This document shows, piece after piece, positions 19,209-42,387 of a stretch of 42,387 nt of DNA; the stretch's first letter is position 1, and every line of letters begins with the position of its first letter. The position numbers and the translations under genes were made by a program. The stretch is from assembly GCA_903904515.1 (NCBI GenBank), contig CAIVCR010000097.1, positions 1-42,387 of the forward strand. Reading direction: 5' to 3'. The notes beneath the pieces are model-generated. The model saw only the letters and a program-made list of their open reading frames with translations, had not been told where the DNA came from and ran no database searches. Source of the DNA: an uncultured Bacteroidia bacterium (GTDB lineage Bacteria > Bacteroidota > Bacteroidia > Bacteroidales > Prolixibacteraceae).

Positions 19209-19480
19209 GAATCATGCAAAGGTACCCGGAGAAACACAAGGTATAAGCCTTTTGATTTCCTCTTTGCGATCCTTGCGATCTTAGCGTGAAACTCTTTTGC
19301 CAATATACCAGGAGTCGCGCAAAGTACGCGGAGAAACGCAAAGTCATAAGATTTTGATTTCCTCTTTGCGATCCTTGCGATCTTAGCGTGAAACTCTTTT
19401 GCCAGTATATTATGTGTCGTGCAAAGTACGCGGGGAAACGCAAAGTTATGAGCGTATATTTATTCTTTGCGAGAACCTTA
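19209..19480. repeat. 2.5 tandem copies of a ~102-bp repeat
   Basis: The sequence from about 19215 recurs with a 102-bp offset. A nearly perfect block starts TTTGATTTCCTCTTTGCGAT at 19251 and at 19353 and runs about 55 bp, with one difference near its end. A third, partial unit starts near 19420 and runs into the pdxH stop codon. Each unit carries CGCAAAG and later CTTTGCG, so it can fold back. This fills the 363-nt space between the GNAT gene and pdxH. The CTTTGCG/TTAGCGTGAAA phrases resemble dispersed Bacteroidota intergenic repeats. A minus-strand open frame through it is an artefact of the repeat. Confidence 0.75.
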
Positions 19481-28600: not shown

Positions 28601-31600
28601 CAATGCTTCCGGCACAGCCGGAACGACTAACGTAACAGGTTTTTTGACAGTAACAAGTGGCACAGTGAATATAGCTTCGTTCACTACCGCTTTCGCTGTT
28701 ACCGGAGCCACTTCTGTAACCGGCACTTTAAGTATAAACAATGCAACGGGTACAACGTTTACCGGAGATGTAACAGTGAATACAAATGGTACATTTAATG
28801 CGTCTGCTGTGGCAGTGGATATTACCTTCGGAGGCAACGTCACCAATAATGGAACATCGTTCGATCTTTCTTCTTCCACGGGAACCACTTATTTAACAGG
28901 TACAAATAAAACTTTAGGGGGAAGTAGTCCATTATCATTTGGTTTACTGACCATTTCAGGAGCCACACTTACTGTGCCATCAGGTGGATCATTATCTTCC
29001 AATGGTGATATTACTATTAACGGGATACTGGCAGTCACCGGAGGTACAGTAACCACTGCCAATGGACACGGGATTGTGAATAATGGAACGATGACAATTT
29101 CCAGTGGTACGGTAACATTGGGAACAGGAGGTAATGGGGGGGAGGACCTAAAAGGAACGGGTTCTGTCTCCATGACCGGAGGTACATTACAGGTAGGACA
29201 TGATTTTAAACCCGGAGTTTTAACTACTCAAGCCAATATGACCGGCGGGACGGTCGAATTCCTCGGTAATAGCGGTCCAGGTGCATTTGGTGCAACTAGT
29301 ACTTATTACTTCTATAATGTTCAAATCGATGCTGCAAGCACTGGTGGACCTGGATTTTCAAGTAAAGCCAATACGATTATCATTCAGGGCAATCTAACCA
29401 TTCAAACAGGTGGAATAGCCGATTTGCCTGCTACTGAAAATAATACAGCCAATTCACTCACTTTAGGCGCTACACCTCAGGCAAGTGGTTATTATGGGAG
29501 TACAAATACATCTTCATTATTAGTTCCAAGTGGTAATAATATATCTGCATTTGGCACAGGCAACAAAACAAATGCGATTAATATTTCCACAACATGTTCT
29601 ATTTCTCTTACATCAGCGGCAGGTACAAATACACAATCTGTATGTCTTAACAGCCCTATCAATAATATTACGTATTCAACGACACTAGCAACAGGAGCAA
29701 ATTTTAGCGGTCTGCCTACAGGAGTTACAGGTAATTGGGCATCGAATGTGGCTACCATAAGCGGGAGCCCTTCAATAACAACCGGAAGTCCGTTTAATTA
29801 TACGGTGACTTTAACCGGAAATTCCTGCAGCAGTACAGCCACCGGTACAATAACGGTACTTTCGCAATTTACCTCGGGAATAATTGCAACAACAGGAGAG
29901 ACGATTTGTTACGGAGGAACACCCGCCAGTACGATTGGAAGTTCAACGGCTGCAACTGGTGGGGATGGAACTATAACCTATTCCTGGAGATCGTCAGCAG
30001 ATTCCTATACCGCAGCCATCAGTGGAGCAACTTCAGCAACCTATCTTCCCCCGGCAGGATTAACGGCAACAAGAAGTTATCAGCGTTATGCACATGACGG
30101 AACCTGCAATACCGGTGCCACTGTATCAACGGGGACATGGACAGTAACCGTAGTATCGGCGCTGAGTTATGGTGCTGCAGGTAATACTTCAGGAGGAGGT
30201 AGCACACAAACAATTTGTTATACTACCTCACCCGCAAGCCTGTCAGCAAATGGAGCAACGGGTTCAGGCAGCTTCAGTTATCAATGGTATTATAAGAGTG
30301 GTTTAGTATCAGCACCAAGTGGGACAAGTACTTCGGGATGGACCCTTGCCACAGGAACAGGAAATGCTACTGCCACCTTTTCGGTACCATCTGCGGTAGC
30401 GGCAAACACTACTTATGCCTGTTTTGTAACGCCAGGCGGAAGTCCAAATTGCGGAACAGCAACATGGGCCACAGGAGCCATACAAGTGACCGTAGAGCCA
30501 AATATTAGCTATGGTACATCAAGCGATGCATCGGGAAATACACAAACGATTTGTTCCGGAACTACACCGGCAGGAAATATGGTGGTAAGTGGAGCAACAG
30601 GATCGGCCAGTTTCAGCTATCAATGGTATTATCAGGCAGGGACACAAAGTAATCCGGGCGGTGGTACCAGCACAACCGGCTGGATAGCATGCGGGTCTTC
30701 GCAAGGGTCGGGTTATAATACCGCTACATTCACACCCTCGGGGACCTTAACAGCCACGACATCATTCGCGTGTTTTGTAACGCCAGGAGGCAGCCCCTCG
30801 TGTGGAACAGCAACATGGGCCAACGGAGTAATAGTGATTACAGTTAATCCGATTCCTTCGGTTACCAATTCCCCGCTGACCCAGACGATCTGTTCGGGCG
30901 TTAGCACCACCCTTGTCACGCTCACTTCCGGTGTTTCGGGTGCCACCTTTGCATGGACAGCCACCGCAACAACGGGTGTTTCAGGTTTCACGGCGAATGG
31001 TACCGGCACGATTCCCGTTCAGACAATCAGCACGACCGGCACCACGCAGGGAACGGTAACGTATGTCGTTACGCCAACTGCTGCTGGCTGTTCAGGTACA
31101 GCGACCAATTATACTGTACTAGTGAATCCTGCTCCTACCGTTACCAATTCCCCGTTAACCCAGACAATCTGTTCGGGCAGCAGCACGACCCTTGTCACGC
31201 TGACCTCCGGTGTTTCGGGTGCCACCTTTACATGGACGGCTACCGCCACTGCTGGTGTTTCAGGCTTCACGGCGAGTGGCACAAGTACGATTCCAGTCCA
31301 GACAATCGGCACCACGGCCAGCACGCAGGGTACAGTAACTTATGCTATCACACCAACAGCGACAAGCTGTTCCGGTGCAGTGACCAATTACACCGTACTT
31401 GTGAATCCGATTCCTACGGTTACCAATACACCACTGACCCAGACCATCTGTTCGGGAAGCAGCACGACTCTTGTCACACTCACATCCGGTGTTTCGGGCA
31501 CCACTTTTGCATGGACGGCTACCGCGACTGCGGGTGTTAGCGGCTTTACATCCAGTGGCACCGGTACGATTCCTGTTCAGGCAATCAGCACCACAGCCAG

Positions 31601-34094
31601 CACCCAGGGAACTGTAACTTATGCCATCACCCCGTCGGCAGCAGGGTGTGCCGGTTCGGTGGCCAATTACACGGTAATAGTCAATCCCATTCCGACGGTT
31701 ACCAATACACCGCTGACCCAAACAATCTGTTCGGGCAGCAGCACAACCCTTGTCACCCTAACCTCCGGTGTTTCGGGCACCACCTTTGCATGGACAGCCA
31801 CCGCGACAACAGGTGTTAGCGGCTTTACCTCCAGTAGTACAAGTACGATCCCTGTTCAGGCGATAAGCACCACGGGCACCACGCAGGGTACCGTAACTTA
31901 TGTCGTCACCCCAACGGCTGCAGGCTGTTCAGGTACAGTGAGCAATTATACGGTACTTGTCAATCCGGCAACGGCCATCGGCAGCCAATCGACTGCTGCA
32001 CAATCAATCTGTCTGAATCAACCCTTTCTTCCAATAACAGTTACCGCAACAGGAACCGGCACTTTAACCTACCAATGGTGGAGTAATACGACTGCCAGCA
32101 CAACAGGAGGGACTTCCCTTGGTTCAGCCAATGGAGCGCAGACAAACAGCTATACTCCTCAGTCAACAGTAACCGGAACGCTTTATTATTATTGTATCGT
32201 CCATGGAAGCTGCGGCGTAGATGTAACCAGTGCTGTTTCAGGGGCATTTATAGTTATCAATGACCTCACCTGGCTCGGTGGTACAAGTTCAGACTGGAAT
32301 ATTGTTGCAAACTGGTCATGTCCATACTTGCCAAATGCGACCACCAATGTTCTGATAGGTAGTGCCACTCATCAGCCTGTGCTGAGTTTCGGCGAAACAG
32401 GAATTTGTAAAAATATAGTAATCAATAGTGGTTCCTCATTAAGTGTGAATACCGGCGGGACACTGCAAATTGCAGAGACCATCACCAACGGCGGGACTTT
32501 AACAGCGTCTGCAGGCACCATTGAACTAATCGGAACTTCAGCCCAAACTATTGGTTCAGTTAATTTTGCCGGTAACACGGTCCAGAATTTAACAGTGTCC
32601 AATCCGGCAGGAGTCACCTTATCCGCCCCATTAAATGTAGCCGGTGTAGTAAAAGCCGCAACAGGGAATTTGACATCAGGAGGGAATCTTACGCTTCTCT
32701 CAACGGGGGCTCAGACAGCACTTATAGATGGATCATCCGGGACACATGCTGTTATAGGAACGGTGACCATGGAACGTTACATCTCTTCGGCATTCGGATA
32801 TAAATATGTAAGTACCCCATTTACCTCCAATTCAGTAAGTGATTTTTCTCCCCCGGTAGATTTAGGTGCAACATTCCCCTCTTTTTATAAGTATGATGAG
32901 AATAATTCGAGAGATTCATCGGGAGTTGCTGCTTATCAGTCAGGTTGGGTTAAGTATCTTTCGGGTACTGTTTCACCGATGGCAGGTTATGCGGCCAACC
33001 TGGGAGCAGGATCGGGTGCAACAACCCTAAGTCTAAATGGAACAGTAAATAATGGACCAATGGCTGTGACACTTTATAACCACAACCGGAAATATACCCA
33101 GGGTTTTAATCTGGTGGGCAATCCTTATCCTTCACCTATTGACTGGGATGTAATTGTAGCAGCAAGCAGTGGTATTGGCTCATCAGTTGCTTTTTTTAAT
33201 ACAAGTGGAACAGATCAATATACAGGCTCTTATTCCTATTATTCAGGTGGGGTAGGCGGTGCCACAAATAATATAGCAGCAATGCAAGGATTTTTTGTCC
33301 TTCCTGATTCACCATCAGGAGTTCTTAATTTCACCAACTCATGCAGGACAAATAACCTTTCCCCAACCTTTAAAGAGGCAAAAGTTGATGATCGGGTGAT
33401 TCTCCAATTTGCGGCAAATTATGATGGTAAAAATGCACTTGATGATGTTGTTTACATTTATTTTGACAACAATTCAAGTCTGCTTTTTGATAAGAAAAGG
33501 GATGCCCTTAAGATGTTGAATACCGATGTGCTGGTTCCCAATCTCTACAGTATAACTTCCGAGACAAAACAAGTAGCGATCAAAGCGATGCCGGTGCCGG
33601 TAGACAGCATCACCAGAATTCCCCTGGGGTTAACAATATTAAGTGAAGGATGGATTAACTTAAACGCAAAGGATATTAGCCTTTTACCATCATCTTATTA
33701 TATTTACTTGGTTGATGCTGAAAAAGGGGTTACGCAAGATCTGAGGAAACTTCCCGATTATCGGTTTAATCTTAAAGCGGGAACGTACAACAACCGTTTT
33801 AACCTGATTTTTTCATTGTCCCAATTAAATACACTACCCACGGTTGCACAAAAGATGTTTCTGATTACCTGTTCAGGATCACTCTTAAAGGTGACCATGA
33901 ACCTTCCACTAAATACGAATGGAACTCTTTATGTAACGAATATGAGCGGTCAGATAATTCTGCACCGCGTGGTTTCCGGTCAGGAGACGGTAGAGATTAC
34001 CCCCGCGTCAAGCAGCGGGCTCTATATACTTACTGTTGTTGCAGGCAATAAAAAAGATTCACAGAAATTACTAATACGAAAAGATTATGAATAG
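25617..34094 (+). CDS. Giant repeat adhesin with T9SS sorting domain
   Basis: About 2,825 residues. I place the start at the ATG at 25617 (MSKKLHT), which gives a standard signal peptide ending VNA; an upstream ATG at 25563 would add 18 hydrophilic residues. Residues about 40-1330 are Thr/Gly/Ser/Asn-rich beta repeats (GNLTI, NGTGTL and similar). This part holds a long duplication (see repeat entries). Two Ig-like units (about 1520-1745, with FSYQWYY and ACFVTPGGSP) precede four near-identical 93-residue PKD/Ig-like repeats. A WLGGTSSDWNIVANW unit lies near residue 2218. The last ~85 residues form a type A T9SS C-terminal domain (GTLYVTNMSGQII ... SGLYILTVVAG). So export is expected by Sec plus T9SS, not the usher. 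It overlaps the next DUF4402 gene by 8 nt, indicating one operon. Confidence 0.9.
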   Translation: MSKKLHTSFIAWTRFLMLLKIVGLIVGILLYAGSVNATTYYARTAGTWTPGTATSSIFSITSCGTAVSNCNPGAGDDISICNGIALTVAGNGVITNLTLSTTTSKLIINSGQTLTVSGTFSNSGTTSNGVNGPGTILFTGTTNLGTLTPTGTRPNVTIGNGTSTNTVSITAPTLVANLTVSANATLTNTTFTVGINGSAFTNSGTFNSGTGAYTFSGASQSINGNATTFSNITVSSTGTGLTNNITAAGGLTIATTWGGTGTFVQATSANLNIGAATVGSTTLTATASSNTVVYNGTTQTVKGTTYYNLTSSAGTLATLGAAATVSNNLSVTTGILADGGLQITGNGSGTLTVANGATLQIGAGTNTTETFPTLFTTSNINLGATSTVNYNWITGTTRIVAGSVTSVGPSTYGNLTITGASGTKTAASAITVAGNLTIATAGETFADGGFTITVNGNVTNNATHSGAGKILLSGGSASHTVTGTADTYGTLELNDANGATLANTTVTTNVGTLTVTAGTLTLNSFATSLVVANTNVSGTLTFNNNTGTRSMGTVTVNPGGTWNNTTVNEPVTINGATFTNTGTFNSGTGAYTFSGASQSINGNATTFSNITVSSTGTGLTNNITAAGGLTIATTWGGTGTFVQATNANLNIGAATVGSATLTATASGNTVTYNGTTQTVKGTTYYNLTSSAGTLATLGAAATISNNLSVTTGTLADGGFQITGNGTGTLNVATGATLQIGAGTATITTFPTLFKTANILLGATSTVIYNSTGSMTVAGNVTSVGPSTYGHLILSGASTKTASSAITIAGNLTINTGTLADGGFLISGPGTGTGTFTISNTGTFTMTNATTTTSSYQAGSFPIFGTYAFDPASTVNYNGAAAQPLYAIASPGYGNLSITTALAASTKTASGPFAIQGTLIVANANSVFYYGSNTVTVNGNIVNLGVINGASGSPGSGKILITGGSGAHTLTTTGTSITATYGNLEFNDATDPTTISNASGTAGTTNVTGFLTVTSGTVNIASFTTAFAVTGATSVTGTLSINNATGTTFTGDVTVNTNGTFNASAVAVDITFGGNVTNNGTSFDLSSSTGTTYLTGTNKTLGGSSPLSFGLLTISGATLTVPSGGSLSSNGDITINGILAVTGGTVTTANGHGIVNNGTMTISSGTVTLGTGGNGGEDLKGTGSVSMTGGTLQVGHDFKPGVLTTQANMTGGTVEFLGNSGPGAFGATSTYYFYNVQIDAASTGGPGFSSKANTIIIQGNLTIQTGGIADLPATENNTANSLTLGATPQASGYYGSTNTSSLLVPSGNNISAFGTGNKTNAINISTTCSISLTSAAGTNTQSVCLNSPINNITYSTTLATGANFSGLPTGVTGNWASNVATISGSPSITTGSPFNYTVTLTGNSCSSTATGTITVLSQFTSGIIATTGETICYGGTPASTIGSSTAATGGDGTITYSWRSSADSYTAAISGATSATYLPPAGLTATRSYQRYAHDGTCNTGATVSTGTWTVTVVSALSYGAAGNTSGGGSTQTICYTTSPASLSANGATGSGSFSYQWYYKSGLVSAPSGTSTSGWTLATGTGNATATFSVPSAVAANTTYACFVTPGGSPNCGTATWATGAIQVTVEPNISYGTSSDASGNTQTICSGTTPAGNMVVSGATGSASFSYQWYYQAGTQSNPGGGTSTTGWIACGSSQGSGYNTATFTPSGTLTATTSFACFVTPGGSPSCGTATWANGVIVITVNPIPSVTNSPLTQTICSGVSTTLVTLTSGVSGATFAWTATATTGVSGFTANGTGTIPVQTISTTGTTQGTVTYVVTPTAAGCSGTATNYTVLVNPAPTVTNSPLTQTICSGSSTTLVTLTSGVSGATFTWTATATAGVSGFTASGTSTIPVQTIGTTASTQGTVTYAITPTATSCSGAVTNYTVLVNPIPTVTNTPLTQTICSGSSTTLVTLTSGVSGTTFAWTATATAGVSGFTSSGTGTIPVQAISTTASTQGTVTYAITPSAAGCAGSVANYTVIVNPIPTVTNTPLTQTICSGSSTTLVTLTSGVSGTTFAWTATATTGVSGFTSSSTSTIPVQAISTTGTTQGTVTYVVTPTAAGCSGTVSNYTVLVNPATAIGSQSTAAQSICLNQPFLPITVTATGTGTLTYQWWSNTTASTTGGTSLGSANGAQTNSYTPQSTVTGTLYYYCIVHGSCGVDVTSAVSGAFIVINDLTWLGGTSSDWNIVANWSCPYLPNATTNVLIGSATHQPVLSFGETGICKNIVINSGSSLSVNTGGTLQIAETITNGGTLTASAGTIELIGTSAQTIGSVNFAGNTVQNLTVSNPAGVTLSAPLNVAGVVKAATGNLTSGGNLTLLSTGAQTALIDGSSGTHAVIGTVTMERYISSAFGYKYVSTPFTSNSVSDFSPPVDLGATFPSFYKYDENNSRDSSGVAAYQSGWVKYLSGTVSPMAGYAANLGAGSGATTLSLNGTVNNGPMAVTLYNHNRKYTQGFNLVGNPYPSPIDWDVIVAASSGIGSSVAFFNTSGTDQYTGSYSYYSGGVGGATNNIAAMQGFFVLPDSPSGVLNFTNSCRTNNLSPTFKEAKVDDRVILQFAANYDGKNALDDVVYIYFDNNSSLLFDKKRDALKMLNTDVLVPNLYSITSETKQVAIKAMPVPVDSITRIPLGLTILSEGWINLNAKDISLLPSSYYIYLVDAEKGVTQDLRKLPDYRFNLKAGTYNNRFNLIFSLSQLNTLPTVAQKMFLITCSGSLLKVTMNLPLNTNGTLYVTNMSGQIILHRVVSGQETVEITPASSSGLYILTVVAGNKKDSQKLLIRKDYE
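26226..27924. repeat. Long in-frame direct duplication inside the adhesin gene
   Basis: The segment 26226 to about 26790 recurs at 27360 to about 27924, an offset of 1,134 bp (378 codons). In the first 200 bp nearly all differences are synonymous third-base changes, while the protein is almost unchanged. So the copies are old enough to have diverged in DNA but are held similar as protein. Confidence 0.85.
30861..31976. repeat. Four tandem 279-bp (93-residue) repeats in the adhesin gene
   Basis: Units start at 30861, 31140, 31419 and 31698 (GTTACCAA), exactly 279 bp apart. Each encodes VTN(S/T)PLTQTICSG followed by STTLVTLTSGVSG and TQGTVTY. They look like PKD/Ig-like stalk domains. High DNA similarity suggests recent expansion or gene conversion and possible length variation between strains. 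Confidence 0.92.
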
Positions 34095-34624: not shown

Positions 34625-37600
34625 ATGAAAAAAACAGCCTTGCCTAAATGCCTCAAATACCGGAAATATCCATTCATTTCCGGTATTTTGATTCTTTTTG
34701 CATGGCTGCTTGCTTTTCTGACTATCCTGCCTTCACCCTGCCGCGCCCAGAACGAACCACAATATGAAGAGATTTCCGTACTTATAAATATTCAACGTTT
34801 TGGTGGCGCTGAAATTCCGGCAGTAATTGTAGATGAGACCGTTTATCTTCCCATAGTAGATATTTTCTCATTTCTGAAAATTAAAATCAATCCATCGGCT
34901 CAGCTTGATTCTGTAACAGGCTCTTTTATTAACCCCAATGCAATCTATACCATTGACAATGTTCACCATAAAATCAGGTATCTTGGGAAAGAATATGCGC
35001 TTAAAAGTAACGATCTGATCAAGACAGAGACAAACCTGTATCTTAAATCAACCTGGTTTGGACAAGTATTCGGACTCGATTGTGCCTTTAGTTTCAGAAG
35101 TTTGTCGGTAAACCTTTCAACCAAACTGGAGTTGCCCGTTATTCGGGAGATGCGACTCGAACAAATGCGGTTGAATATCAGTCGGCTTAAGGGGGAGATA
35201 AAAGCTGACACTGTCATTGCCCGCAAATATCCCGCCTTTCACTTCGGGATGGCTGACTGGTCGGTAATCTCCACTCAGCAATTGCCTGGAGTGACTGATA
35301 CTCGGTTAAATCTCTCATTAGGTACTGTAATTGCAGGAGGAGAAGCCAATGCGCTTTTAAACTATGACAATACAGTCCCTTTTACTGAAAAGCAGCAGCA
35401 ATACCAGTGGCGGTTTGTTAATAACGATCGACCGGTTTTGCGGCAAGTGACTGTAGGAAAAATATACACCACCGTTACATCCTCCATTTTTGATCCGATT
35501 GTTGGGATGCAATTTACCAATACCCCCACAACATACCGTCGCTCCTTTGGAACATACACGTTAAGTGATATTACAGAACCAAACTGGGTTGTAGAACTTT
35601 ACGTTAACAATGTTATGGTCGATTACATGAAGGCTGACGGATCGGGATTTTATAAGTTTGAGGTGCCCTTGGTATACGGCAATTCAGCTGTAAAGCTTAA
35701 ATTTTATGGCCCATGGGGTGAGGAGCGGACCAAAGAGCAGAATATGAGTATTCCATTCAATTTTTTACCTCCAAAAGAATTTGAGTACAATGTTAGTGGA
35801 GGTTTAGTCGAGGATTCTCTTCATAGCCGGGTTGCTCGCGCAACCCTAAATTATGGGGTAAGCCGTTGGCTCACTATCGGTGGTGGCGTGGAATATCTTT
35901 CGTCAGTGATTACCGGACCCGAAATGCCCTATTTAAGTGCCTCACTTAGGTTGATGAGCAGCTTAATGCTTTCCGGAGAATATACCTATGGTGTCCGGTC
36001 AAAAGGAATTTTGAACTACCGGCTCCCTTCCAATCTTTTATTTGAGCTGAATTATACAAAGTATGTTCCAGGGCAAAAAGCTATTATTTACAATTATCTC
36101 GAGGAACGAAAAGGGGTTATTTCCATACCTATAACCGGTAAAAACTTTGCAGCCTATACCAGATTGACAGTCAATCAAACAGTGCTTCCCGGAATTACCA
36201 ATACCAACGCAGAGATGCTGTGGTCGGGAAGTGTTCATGGAATAACAACCAATTTCACTACCTTTGGTCTATTCACAGGCGTCGCTAATCCCTATGTTTA
36301 CAGCAATTTATCTCTTTCATTTCGAATGCCATCACACTTAGCCATAACACCACAGATTCAATATGCATACAATCAGCAACGGGTTATCTCAGCAAGAGCC
36401 AATATTGAAAAACAGTTGTCAAAACACGGCTTCTTAAATATGTCGTTTGAACAAAACTTTGCAAGCAATACGCGAAATATTGAGGTCGGTATGCGGTACG
36501 ATCTATCATTTGCTCAGACTGGATTTTCAGTCAGGAACACGAATGATCAAACTTCAATGATTGAGTCTGCAAGGGGAAGCCTATTGTATGATAACAAAAC
36601 AAAATATCTTGGAACCACCAACCGAACCAACGTTGGCAAAGGTGCAATCACACTGCTTCCTTTCCTTGATATCAACGGAAATGGTAAACACGATAAGGGC
36701 GAACCAAAAGTGGCGGGGCTGCAATTTAGGCTAAACGGGGGGACTATTAAGCGAAATGACAAGGATACTACCATTCATATTCTAGATCTTATGCCATATA
36801 CCAGTTATTACCTGGAGCTCGATAAAAACAGCTTTGACAATGTGGCCTGGCAAATGCATAACCTGATCATCAAGGTGAATATCGATGCCAACCAGTTCAA
36901 AACCATTGAAGTACCGGTTTCTGTAATGGGTGAAGCATCAGGCACAGTTTACAATGAATCCAAAGGTCAGGGAAGAATTTTAGTCTGCTTTTACCGCAGT
37001 GATGGAACCCTTGTAGCTCGCACAATGACCGAATCAGATGGTTATTACAGCTACCTTGGTCTAAAACCAGGGGTCTATTCGGCTATGATTGACCCGGAAC
37101 AACTTAAAAGGTTAAAGATGGTTTCTGTACCGGAGAAGATCCCTGTAAATATTGCAGCTTCTAAAGACGGAACGATTCTAGATGGTCTTGACTTCCATCT
37201 CAGCCTGATTGATAAAGAACCCGTAAAGGATACAGCTAAAATTGTGTCGGAAATTAAACCTGATGTAGTTTTAGGTATAAAGGATACTCTGGTTAAAATG
37301 CTACCGGTTAAAATTGAAACTCCGGCAGCTCCACCGGTAAAAGTGGCAACTCCTGTTAATTCAAAAGAAAATATCCTGAAAGAGTCTAAAGCAGTTGAAT
37401 CTGAAAATATTGCTCCTTCAACTGTAACTCCGGCAGCTCCACCTGCAAAAATTGCGGCTCCTGTAGCCCCATCGGCTAAAGAAGACAAGCCCGCAGACAC
37501 TAAAGCCACAGAACCAGCTAAAGTTATACCTCCGGCTATAACTACGCCTGCTCCGCAAGGGAAAGAGACTACTACTTCCTCGCAGAATCAGGAAATTGAT

Positions 37601-40482: not shown

Positions 40483-41853
40483 ATGCTCGAAAAACTATTT
40501 AAACTAACAGCAAACAAGACTTCGGTAAAAACTGAGGTTATTGCAGGTATCACCACGTTTATGACGATGGCGTATATCTTATTCTTGAATCCCAATATCC
40601 TATCCTCTACCGGAATGGATAAGAACGCAGTATTTTTTGCAACCGCTATTGCCGCAGGTTTTGTAACAATTGCAATGGGTCTGATTGCGAATTTCCCTAT
40701 TGCTCTTGCACCGGGAATGGGTTGTACTGCACTCTTTGCTACCGTAGCTCTTGCCGGTGTGGGGATGCCCTGGAAAGTTGCCTTAGGAGCTGTATTTATC
40801 TCAGGTATTATTTTCATTATTCTGACCGTGACTAAAATACGTCAGATTCTTGTTGTTGCTGTACCAAACTCTCTGAAACGGGCAATCACGGTGGGAATTG
40901 GCCTTTTCATTACGATCATCGGGGTGAAAATCTCCGATATCATGGCGGTTTCGACCTCACTTATTCCTCCAACAATTGAGTCAGTTACCAAAGGAGGAGG
41001 AAGGGCCACACTTCAGTTTTTTGAATGGAATATAGGAATGGGAAGCTTTCATAATCCAAGCATGGGACTCTGTCTGATTGGTATTGCAATTACTGCATTA
41101 ATGATGGCCCGGAAGATTAAAGGTTCCCTGTTAATAGGCATCGTTGTAACGACCCTGATTGGTATTCCAATGGGTGTTACCCACGTTCCTCCAAATTTTG
41201 CATTTTTCTCTCTGCCAAATTTAACCAATTTAGCAGTGTTTCAATTAGATATTATGGGTGCTTTGAATATGGGAATCTGGACAGTTGTCTTTACCTTCAC
41301 TTTTGTTGAACTTTTTGACACCTTTGGGACCCTGGTTGGAACAGCCAGTAAAGCCGGACTGATAGACAAAGACGGCAACTCACCCCTTATCGGGAAAGCG
41401 ATGCTTGTGGATGCAGTTGGTGTATCATTTGGAGCATTAATGGGAACTTCAACTGTAACAGCTTACGTTGAAAGTGCTGCAGGTATCAGCGAAGGTGGAC
41501 GAACTGGCTTGACAGCCGTTACAACAGGGGTATTATTCTTACTTGCACTTCTGATCTCCCCGATTGCCGGGATGATTCCTAATGCGGCTACAGCTCCGGC
41601 GTTAATCATTGTAGGGGTTTTAATGGCTTCTTCAGTTGCAGATATCGATTTCAACGATTTCACCGAGGGTTTTCCTGCCTTTATCACCTTTGTGCTGATG
41701 CCATTCACATACAGTATTGCCAATGGTATCGCGGCTGGTATCGTATTCTATACACTTTTAAAAGTTGGAACAGGAAAAGCAAAACAGGTACATTGGATGA
41801 TGTATCTCCTTTTTGCCATTGTTGTAACACGCTTTATCTTCTTAAGTGAATAG
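40483..41853 (+). CDS. NCS2/AzgA-type purine permease
   Basis: Inner-membrane nucleobase transporter (guanine/hypoxanthine type) of 456 residues with about 12-14 hydrophobic helices. Family motifs: VKTEVIAGITTFMTMAYILFLNP at the N-terminus, NFPIALAPGMG, LKRAITVGIGLFITIIG, FVELFDTFGTLVGTASKAGL, and ALMGTSTVTAYVESAAGISEGGRTGLTAV. The usual APGMGLNAFF reads APGMGCTALF here, changing a conserved helix-3 Asn, so purine preference may differ. Paired with the DUF5020 channel; own terminator follows. Confidence 0.92.
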   Translation: MLEKLFKLTANKTSVKTEVIAGITTFMTMAYILFLNPNILSSTGMDKNAVFFATAIAAGFVTIAMGLIANFPIALAPGMGCTALFATVALAGVGMPWKVALGAVFISGIIFIILTVTKIRQILVVAVPNSLKRAITVGIGLFITIIGVKISDIMAVSTSLIPPTIESVTKGGGRATLQFFEWNIGMGSFHNPSMGLCLIGIAITALMMARKIKGSLLIGIVVTTLIGIPMGVTHVPPNFAFFSLPNLTNLAVFQLDIMGALNMGIWTVVFTFTFVELFDTFGTLVGTASKAGLIDKDGNSPLIGKAMLVDAVGVSFGALMGTSTVTAYVESAAGISEGGRTGLTAVTTGVLFLLALLISPIAGMIPNAATAPALIIVGVLMASSVADIDFNDFTEGFPAFITFVLMPFTYSIANGIAAGIVFYTLLKVGTGKAKQVHWMMYLLFAIVVTRFIFLSE

Positions 41854-41869
41854 TTTACAATAAAAGATT

Positions 41870-41901
41870 AAAAGCGCTCCATTTTAGTGTGGGGCGCTTT
41901 T
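41870..41901 (+). terminator. Rho-independent terminator after the purine permease
   Basis: AAAAGCGCTCC (41870-41880) pairs with GGGGCGCTTTT (41891-41901), 11 pairs including one G-U, ending in a T stretch. Sixteen nt after the stop. Confidence 0.85.
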
Positions 41902-41918
41902 ATCTTGGAAAAATATCC

Positions 41919-41926
41919 TACTTTTG
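41919..41926 (+). promoter_or_regulatory. -7 box upstream of the tRNA-like array
   Basis: TACTTTTG, an exact TAnnTTTG match, 14 nt before the first tRNA-like unit and 272 nt before the intact tRNA-Val. Position relative to unit 1 is what one expects for a tRNA promoter. No TTG at the normal -33 spacing. Confidence 0.4.
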
Positions 41927-41939
41927 CATTCATATTGAA

Positions 41940-42180
41940 GGTCCGTCGGCTGACGGATCAGTTGGTTTAGTCCGCCAGTTGGCGGATGACAGGTTAGGGA
42001 TCACTGGTTCTTTTTTTTATTTTTGAAGGTCCGCCGGCTGGCGGATCAGTTGGTTTAGTCCGCCAGTTGGCGGATGACAGGGTAGGGGTCACTGGTTCAT
42101 TATTTAGAAGGTCCGTAGGCTGACGGATCAGTTGGTTTAGTCCGCCAGTTGGCGGATGACAGGGTAGGGATCACTGGTTC
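41940..42180 (+). repeat. Array of three tRNA-Val-derived units carrying 16-nt palindromes
   Basis: Units at 41940-42010, 42028-42098 and 42110-42180, 71 bp each. Every unit has GG, a 16-nt palindrome (TCCGTCGGCTGACGGA, TCCGCCGGCTGGCGGA or TCCGTAGGCTGACGGA), then TCAGTTGGTTTAG, a second palindrome TCCGCCAGTTGGCGGA, then 24 nt. The 13-nt and 24-nt parts equal 42209-42221 and 42232-42255 of the intact tRNA-Val (13/13 in all units; 22, 24 and 23 of 24). The palindromes stand where the tRNA has 9 and 10 nt, and the last 17 nt of the tRNA are missing. A 17-nt T-rich spacer after units 1 and 3 is identical. The units cannot fold as tRNA. Confidence 0.9.
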
Positions 42181-42197
42181 TTTTTTTTATTTTTGAA

Positions 42198-42272
42198 GGG
42201 TTGTTAGCTCAGTTGGTTTAGAGCATTACCTTGACAGGGTAGGGGTCACTGGTTCGAATCCAGTACAACCCA
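42198..42272 (+). tRNA. tRNA-Val (anticodon GAC)
   Basis: 75 nt without encoded CCA. Acceptor GGGTTGT/ACAACCC (42198-42204, 42265-42271), D stem GCTC/GAGC, anticodon stem TTACC/GGTAG with loop TTGACAG (anticodon GAC at 42233-42235), variable GGGTC, T arm ACTGG-TTCGAAT-CCAGT, discriminator A. All stems pair, with one T-G at the top of the anticodon stem. It lies directly after three degraded relatives of itself. Confidence 0.97.
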
Positions 42273-42291: not shown

Positions 42292-42387
42292 ATGTATACC
42301 ACATACGTTTTATATTCGCCCAAATTCAATAAAATTTATATTGGATTCTCTTCAGAACTAACAAATCGTTTGATGGCTCATAACGAT
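42292..42387 (+). CDS. GIY-YIG nuclease family protein, 5' part only
   Basis: The frame starts at ATG 42292 and runs off the window; 32 codons are visible. YVLYSPKFNKIYIGFSSEL followed by RLMAHND is the start of a small single-domain GIY-YIG protein (YhbQ/UPF0213-like), with the GIY and YIG positions as YVLY and YIGF. It begins 20 nt after the tRNA-Val. Small proteins of this family are common and often of unknown role; function not assigned. Confidence 0.8.
   Translation, partial: MYTTYVLYSPKFNKIYIGFSSELTNRLMAHND

Follow-up and report, generated by a model that had tools for sequence, protein, structure and literature searches.

How was the short tandem array that stands in front of a tRNA-Val gene near the end of this contig formed, and why are palindromes built into it? 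The window (the whole stretch of 42,387 nucleotides that was analysed) ends with three 71-bp units, an intact tRNA-Val(GAC) gene, and the start of a small open reading frame. Comparison with related genomes points, with moderate confidence, to a mobile, homing-like tRNA cassette, in which the leftover tRNA copies would have been silenced by mobile hairpins.

Organization of the tRNA-Val locus

The features of the locus are listed in Table 1. Both ARAGORN and Rfam gave tRNA-Val(GAC) as the sole tRNA in the window. The derivation of the three units from this tRNA, claimed in a preliminary description of the locus, was confirmed by the repeats and by alignment to the intact gene. The direct repeats agree with the exact 13-nt block and the block of 22–24 out of 24 positions reported there as common to units and tRNA: TCAGTTGGTTTAG is present in four identical copies, one in each unit and one in the intact tRNA, and the 24-nt tRNA block is conserved in 22, 24, 23, and 24 of 24 positions across the four copies. 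The same alignment reproduced the reported substitutions, in which the tRNA segments GTTGTTAGC (9 nt) and AGCATTACCT (10 nt) are each replaced by a 16-nt palindrome and the last 17 nt of tRNA-Val are missing. Successive units start 88 and 82 bp apart. The array has the appearance of tandem copying, as had been proposed for a single remodelled copy amplified together with its leader, but the leader preceding unit 3 is unlike the others, and the first palindrome varies by unit (TCCGTCGGCTGACGGA, TCCGCCGGCTGGCGGA, and TCCGTAGGCTGACGGA). This palindrome reads TCCGTC..GACGGA in unit 1 and TCCGCC..GGCGGA in unit 2, which differ on both sides, and includes one mismatch in unit 3.

Table 1. Location of the array, its neighbours, and their component parts within the window
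Feature	Position	Strand	Remarks
Xanthine/uracil permease family gene	40483..41853	+	PF00860, E 3.2e-39; upstream neighbour, outside the element
Inverted repeat	41869..41902	+	Probable terminator of the permease gene
TACTTTTG, possible -7 promoter element	41919..41926	+	TAnnTTTG; directly 5' of the first unit
Displaced tRNA-Val copy 1	41940..42010	+	Palindromes 41942-41957 and 41971-41986; tRNA blocks 41958-41970 and 41987-42010
Displaced tRNA-Val copy 2	42028..42098	+	Palindromes 42030-42045 and 42059-42074; tRNA blocks 42046-42058 and 42075-42098
Displaced tRNA-Val copy 3	42110..42180	+	Palindromes 42112-42127 (one stem mismatch) and 42141-42156; tRNA blocks 42128-42140 and 42157-42180
Intact tRNA-Val(GAC)	42198..42272	+	ARAGORN (end 42272/3); Rfam tRNA, 66 bits
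Small GIY-YIG nuclease ORF, 5' part	42292..42387	+	32 codons, cut by the contig end; assigned by likeness to the L031 protein

When the window was scanned for the palindrome pattern with up to two mismatches, a total of 12 matches were obtained on both strands, corresponding to six places, all within the array; the expected number, estimated from 100 shuffles, was 0.21. The GIY-YIG ORF, which starts 19 nt 3' of tRNA-Val and was overlooked in the preliminary description, is likely to be the partner of the array. No integrase gene, as would be expected beside the tRNA in an island integrated by a tyrosine integrase, was recognized by eye among the ORFs from position 36000 up to the contig end, which cuts off the downstream side. 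In three related loci (L030, L031, and L040), the array is preceded by a coding end similar, by eye, to that of the permease gene. Elsewhere in the window, a 279-bp tandem repeat of four copies, possibly coding, is located at 30842-31966, and a 102-bp tandem repeat with GCAAAG-type motifs at 19216-19446.

Recurrence of the array in related bacteria

The preliminary description had treated the remodelling as a one-off event and proposed a search of related genomes for the palindrome and for tRNA-Val loci. By this search, the replacement at the second site (D-loop followed by palindrome) was identified in 24 of 140 genomes of the family, belonging to seven of 23 genera, and the reversed pattern used as control gave none. 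The one-off interpretation is not supported, given the presence of the same second-palindrome junctions in many genera and of palindromes in displaced copies of other tRNAs (see below). Because these junctions are shared among so many genera, the second palindrome was inherited or transferred. A DNA search with the array gave matches in 47 of 101 genomes, many of them to the 24-nt tRNA block only. The loci L029-L042 contain tRNA-Val copies bearing palindromes.

In the named genome collection, the second-site pattern was detected in 48 stretches, including four from other phyla, two Saprospirales-type loci without tRNA, and 42 counted tRNA sites, of which 18 were read and 24 were matched by contig to loci already seen. 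Altogether 23 of the 48 stretches were read; five were not tRNA sites (L089, L094, L098, L117, and L130), and L121 (Streptomyces) was left out. The carriers include Draconibacterium, Maribellus, Mariniphaga, Sunxiuqinia, and other Bacteroidales, and the same anatomy is present in the isolates Draconibacterium sediminis, D. mangrovi, Sunxiuqinia dokdonensis, and Maribellus sp. The array of L113 belongs to tRNA-Val(CAC). In L115 and L123, only palindrome-bearing tRNA-Val copies were found, with no intact tRNA within 8 kb, and the L115 copy was itself called an undetermined tRNA by ARAGORN. In a wider sample of the phylum (60 other genomes, with the loci of 29 examined), a tRNA was present in seven of 29 loci (six at a narrower distance), and all seven contained a partial tRNA copy, with stems of 8-12 in four (Lys, Val(TAC) twice, and Asp) and weak stems of 4 in three (Pro, Asn, and Ser).

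The anatomy of the locus is secure and belongs to a recurrent pattern, with cassettes spanning at least 10 tRNA kinds. The occurrence of similar copies beside several kinds of tRNA in related bacteria suggests that tRNA genes are the target of a mobile element that is still little known.

The GIY-YIG gene and its linkage to tRNA genes

The L031 protein, encoded by a stand-alone ORF of 84 amino acids, matched PF01541 (E 3e-15), and the nearest solved structure by sequence was the UPF0213 protein 1ywl (E 0.01). The common order in many relatives is an intact tRNA, the GIY-YIG ORF, and then a palindrome-bearing tRNA copy that keeps the tRNA 3' end. Small GIY-YIG ORFs were collected in 73 rows from 12 genomes and the fetched loci, which overlap, and 47 rows carried an ARAGORN tRNA within 1.3 kb. 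By hand count within the 12 family genomes, three fragments being left out, about 23 of 40 distinct places were linked to a tRNA and about 17 had no tRNA nearby. The tRNAs beside GIY-YIG ORFs are Val(GAC), Val(TAC), Pro, Asn, His, Gly, Asp, Ala, and Met, and the unit is repeated in arrays, for example at tRNA-Asn (G043) and tRNA-His (G157). The genome of the window itself contains a second cassette (L185, contig C108), composed of tRNA-Val(TAC), a GIY-YIG ORF, and a copy in which the TCCCGACCAGCAGTCGGGA hairpin forms the anticodon arm.

On a tree of GIY-YIG sequences (113 rows, 80 columns), a group of 75 rows was separated from the remaining 38 with support of 100/96. Based on the presence of a same-strand tRNA within 3.5 kb inside the locus, 61 members of the larger group were tRNA-labelled and 14 unlabelled; in the smaller group, 37 were without the label and one had a tRNA at 0.9 kb. 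The labels of tRNA kind clustered on the tree, with 29 changes versus 58.4 after shuffling and none of 200 shuffles as low, near-copies contributing to this difference. As estimated from dN/dS within the Val(GAC) clade (median 0.18 and maximum 0.39 for 21 usable pairs from 28 sequences), the nuclease gene is under purifying selection. Among 41 tRNA-Val(GAC) loci, five included both displaced copies and GIY-YIG, seven copies only, two GIY-YIG only, and 27 neither (Fisher p 0.016). The two loci with GIY-YIG only are L040, which has a short unit below the threshold, and L143 of G005, a genome with a displaced copy on another contig (L038). Of 12 genomes with 0 or 1 TCCGYC palindrome, five gave one GIY-YIG match only; the ORF concerned is about 600 codons long, and from this length we take it to be uvrC.

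Hairpins in displaced copies of many tRNAs

Alignment of intact tRNAs to their surroundings gave a total of 126 partial copies. The match covered 24 nt or more in 118 of them, and an internal hairpin was present in 92 of these 118. Queries that bear hairpins themselves (tRNA-Stop, tRNA-Lys, tRNA-???, odd-length Val and Asp, L173 Tyr, and L160 Pro) were then dropped. After this filter, a hairpin was detected in 92 of 97 displaced partial copies. These do not represent an independent sample, because many of them are nearly identical or have a common origin, and a palindrome search supplied many of the loci. The hairpin was internal in 87 (stem of at least 5) and at the end in five (stem of at least 6); among random 16-18-mers, stems of 5 or more arise in about 4-6% and stems of 6 or more in about 1%. 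The five copies without hairpin are L126 (beside an N run), L136 (a weak 22-nt insert), L108 (a Gly query cross-matching a Val gene), L269 (apparently recombinant), and L177 (a complex T-loop insert). The 97 copies cover Val, Asn, Ala, His, Gly, Met, Asp, Arg, and Phe, the copies of tRNA-Pro being below the threshold or dropped.

The position of the hairpin differed depending on the tRNA. For Val(GAC), the replaced stretches are 25-34, 46-52, 53-59, and the T-loop, the first of which was replaced in 39 of 54 hairpin-bearing inserts. The anticodon arm of about 17 nt was replaced in copies of Val(TAC), Ala, and the Met of G034; positions 29-35 and 58-62 in Asn; positions 52-64 in His; the T-arm or T-loop in Phe, Asp, and Gly; and the D-loop in Arg. 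Where the TCCGYC count is 0 or 1, other palindromes are used, such as TTCCGAAAGCTTTCGGAA for Met (G029), CTCCGATGCTTCGGAG for Phe (G023 and G054), and CCCGAGGGCTCGGGG for Asp (G021). Annotation is affected by these leftovers, because ARAGORN calls some of them odd tRNAs, i.e. tRNA-Lys, tRNA-Stop, or tRNA-Val and tRNA-Asp of 82-86 nt (L168, L161, L031, L035, and L306).

Dispersal and sequence of the palindromes

The pattern TCCGYCN4GRCGGA was found at 35 exact places in the genome of the window (3.57 Mb, 130 contigs) and its reversed form at none, so that the palindrome is a member of a dispersed family. With a tighter pattern and up to one mismatch, 44 forward and 32 reverse matches were obtained. 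The number per genome ranged from 0 to 70 for TCCGYC palindromes (101 genomes) and from 4 to 51 for TCCCGAT palindromes (12 genomes). Among 28 palindrome loci read in the genome of the window, six of which are the array itself, tRNA blocks were present at this locus only. A dispersed tRNA-like element was ruled out for this genome, where the DNA search with the whole array gave a single match. A dispersed element unrelated to tRNA-Val, which according to the preliminary description would have refuted its interpretation, was not found there; among relatives, the weaker matches L043 and L044 are palindrome pairs with no tRNA-Val gene in the locus, L043 with some tRNA-like sequence in between.

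The patterns used for fetching fixed the other stem letters and left the pair 5-12 free. Among the 65 unique contexts of second-site palindromes, 36 had C-G at this pair and 29 had T-A, and neither a mismatch nor G-T was seen; in 103 other fetched copies it was paired in 101, the exceptions being one C-A and one T-G. Because intermediates at this pair are absent, the pattern suggests that palindromes were exchanged whole as DNA and not altered by stepwise RNA selection. No fixed tetranucleotide was found flanking the 103 copies in the fetched loci, from which second-site copies were excluded; a purine preceded the palindrome in 83 and a pyrimidine followed it in 84 of the 103. Outside tRNAs, palindromes replaced about 7 nt at the loops of other hairpins or repeats in L249, L239, L269, and L130, and 5 to 13 nt in L025, L228, and L233.

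Two further arrangements were observed. In L008, L013, L023, L015, and L024, the palindrome lies within MITE-like repeats, and in some copies the ends resemble, by eye, GAGGCTGTATCAAAAGT and its reverse complement. In L009, L012, and L024, palindromes cap larger inverted repeats, that of L009 being CCCGGGGTAAGCAA..TTGCTTACCCCGGG.

Putative leader RNA and its folding

The motif TAnnTTTG, which we take to be the consensus of a -7 promoter element, was searched in 26 arrays. It was present within 85 nt 5' of the first palindrome in 19 of them, and within 45 nt 5' of the intact tRNA in three, including the window (TATTTTTG), the two stretches differing in length. The array is probably transcribed as a leader RNA, because the motif mostly precedes the first palindrome and the two-palindrome copies are then located between promoter and tRNA.

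The influence of the array on folding was predicted for 24 arrays, which are related by descent, so that p-values from these comparisons overstate the differences. For the cloverleaf of the true tRNA, the predicted pairing was 0.81 alone and 0.59 with the array. Restoration of the native segments at the second site gave 0.41, the actual array being better in 19 of 24 and worse in two, and shuffling of the palindromes gave 0.51 (better in 19, worse in three). Upon deletion of the palindromes the value was 0.57 versus 0.59, the actual array being better in seven and worse in 10. These predictions suggest that the hairpins spare the true tRNA more than a native or random sequence would, though not more than deletion; insulation of the tRNA fails to explain the choice of hairpins, because an array without them folds as well.

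Comparison of empty and occupied sites

In G057, the 5' and 3' parts of the native tRNA-Val persist, both with palindromes, and an intact tRNA-Val and a GIY-YIG ORF are located between them. The DNA following the displaced copy in G057 resembles the DNA following the intact tRNA in G046 (72% over 622 bp), and the flanks of the occupied G057 site agree with those of the empty G046 site in 75% over 327 bp on the left and 71% over 534 bp on the right. The acceptor stem is GAGGCAT/ATGCCTC in the native tRNA-Val of G046 and GGGTTGT/ACAACCC in the inserted tRNA-Val of G057, and the intact tRNAs of the two genomes are identical over 62 nt. Four occupied loci, including this one, were aligned to 20 empty loci; a clear flank match was obtained for this one and none for the other three. 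Mobility of the cassette is likely; the comparison of empty and occupied sites comes from a single species pair, with flank identity of about 71-75%.

Proposed mechanism and alternative explanations

The observations can be put together as follows. A free-standing GIY-YIG nuclease gene and a functional tRNA gene would travel together and insert at a matching tRNA gene of the host, the nuclease presumably driving the movement. Insertion and later tandem duplication would leave partial tRNA copies flanking the intact tRNA. Short mobile DNA hairpins would then silence these leftovers by taking the place of a tRNA arm, either entirely or on one strand, or by occupying its loop, and would persist since the leftovers could then no longer pair with the true tRNA. 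In the window, one copy with two palindromes would have multiplied in tandem behind the tRNA promoter and ahead of the tRNA. Less well accommodated by this model are the tRNA-Val(GAC) loci with displaced copies only or GIY-YIG only, the absence of an intact tRNA near the copies in L115 and L123, the small GIY-YIG places away from tRNAs, the low number of tRNA-bearing loci and the weak stems in the sample of the phylum, and the promoter-like motif directly before the intact tRNA of the window. An extension of this model to the whole phylum, with cassettes of about 340-450 bp composed of tRNA and GIY-YIG and a dedicated exchange of hairpins for arms that silences leftovers and keeps the essential tRNA intact, is put forward only tentatively and is more doubtful than the model for the locus itself.

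The simplest alternative is neutral landing, i.e. that mobile palindromes strike any hairpin loop and surplus tRNA copies are merely harmless targets. This would account for the replacements at non-tRNA loops, for those of 5 to 13 nt, and for the palindromes seen by eye inside other repeats, yet as many as 92 of 97 displaced copies have been struck in genomes that hold few palindromes of either type (0-70 and 4-51). At such numbers, with hairpins per genome estimated and not counted, palindromes are too few for chance strikes, and therefore either the tRNA sequence should be targeted or the strikes selected; neutral landing is considered unlikely, though the best of the alternatives. A protective role, in which the palindrome destroys the target of the nuclease and keeps leftovers at the cassette ends from being cut, appears improbable. 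The recurrence of substitution points, above all 25-34 of tRNA-Val(GAC), is in its favour, as are some Draconibacterium cassettes (L064 and L065) that hold an intact tRNA-Val with a different anticodon stem. The substitutions are spread over several arms, however, and any target inside the 62-nt stretch would still be cut, because the cassette tRNA of G057 is identical there to that of the empty site.

It is even less probable that a RAYT transposase moves the palindromes as REP-like elements, without relation to the GIY-YIG gene. Y1_Tnp genes are present in 84 of 101 genomes, with one in the genome of the window, and longer CCGYC..GRCGG hairpins were found in three of 38 Y1_Tnp loci, at 0.12 per kb versus 0.06 elsewhere. 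Moreover, a link is possible for the TCCCGAT type, because the Y1_Tnp gene of G034 (L203) has TCCCGATGAAAATCGGGA on both sides, the palindrome also present in the displaced tRNA-Met of the same genome (L265). Against this, the TCCGYC..GRCGGA hairpin of the window was found in none of the 38 fetched Y1_Tnp loci, the Y1_Tnp gene in its own genome (L211, contig C56) is flanked by a palindrome of another family (CAACCCG..CGGGTTG), the dispersed copies are free of a fixed tetranucleotide tag, and the concentration in tRNA copies would be left unexplained. The idea that the units function as small RNAs or as tRNA decoys, carrying hairpins by design, ranks equally low: it agrees with the pair 5-12 kept in 65 of 65 second-site palindromes and with the promoter-like motif upstream of the first unit, but the copy ends vary in tRNA position, the arm with the hairpin varies by tRNA kind, and the lack of a G-T intermediate is better fitted by whole-palindrome exchange. 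Finally, the assembly is fragmented (130 contigs, 82.93% complete) and the window contig ends inside a repeated gene, but since the same anatomy is present in named isolates and in genomes assembled into one or four contigs (G043 and G157), an artefact is extremely improbable.

Relation to known systems

In the passages of open-licence articles covered by the literature search, no report was found of cassettes of tRNA and GIY-YIG with hairpin-bearing tRNA copies. In the atp6 gene of Allomyces, an endonuclease insertion of the gene-displacing type supplies a replacement gene part and the displaced native part stays; unlike the present cassette, this is a protein gene in the mitochondrion, and we know of no hairpin substitution in that type. 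Rickettsia palindromic elements are about 100 bp or more and are inserted largely in protein-coding genes. The comparison made with them in the preliminary description is a loose one, since the palindromes described here are mostly 16-20 bp and lie in surplus tRNA copies; the likeness is in the location of palindromes inside genes. The Rickettsia elements are also mentioned in an account of REP sequences (PMC3733652).

REP elements are palindromes tagged with GTAG or CGTC, the CGTC types occurring in Bacteroidetes, and some are inserted in other palindromes (PMC3733652). The palindromes of this study are likewise short and dispersed, some within other palindromes, but differ in the lack of a GTAG or CGTC end tag and of any Y1_Tnp locus with the palindrome of the window; displaced tRNA copies are not given as sites in the passages on REP (PMC3733652). 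Mobile hairpins with conserved stems and genome-wide spread are also represented by the RHE of sponge mitochondria (PMC2800124) and the GC clusters of yeast mitochondria (PMC4478555). Both are mitochondrial, and the parts of these reports considered here describe no cassette of tRNA and nuclease.

The closest parallel is SegB, a free-standing GIY-YIG homing endonuclease of T-even phages, which amplifies a segment of tRNA plus nuclease (Nat Commun 2026, PMC13096335). As far as SegB is described in the sections referred to, the two systems have in common that a stand-alone GIY-YIG gene adjoins tRNA genes, that tRNA and nuclease are amplified in tandem, and that various tRNA kinds are involved. 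They differ in that SegB is a phage gene with amplification of full-length tRNA, whereas the present cassettes are located on bacterial chromosomes with broken extra tRNA copies and hairpins (PMC13096335). In a comparison with the PHROG families of phage proteins, the L031 protein gave no match at E 0.001. The hairpin-marked leftovers would serve as a natural record of the destinations of DNA palindromes, and the spread of REP-like palindromes would become testable, because struck and unstruck copies of one sequence adjoin each other. If the proposed mechanism is correct, these cassettes would constitute a widespread class of minimal selfish elements exploiting essential tRNA genes of bacteria, in parallel to SegB of phages.
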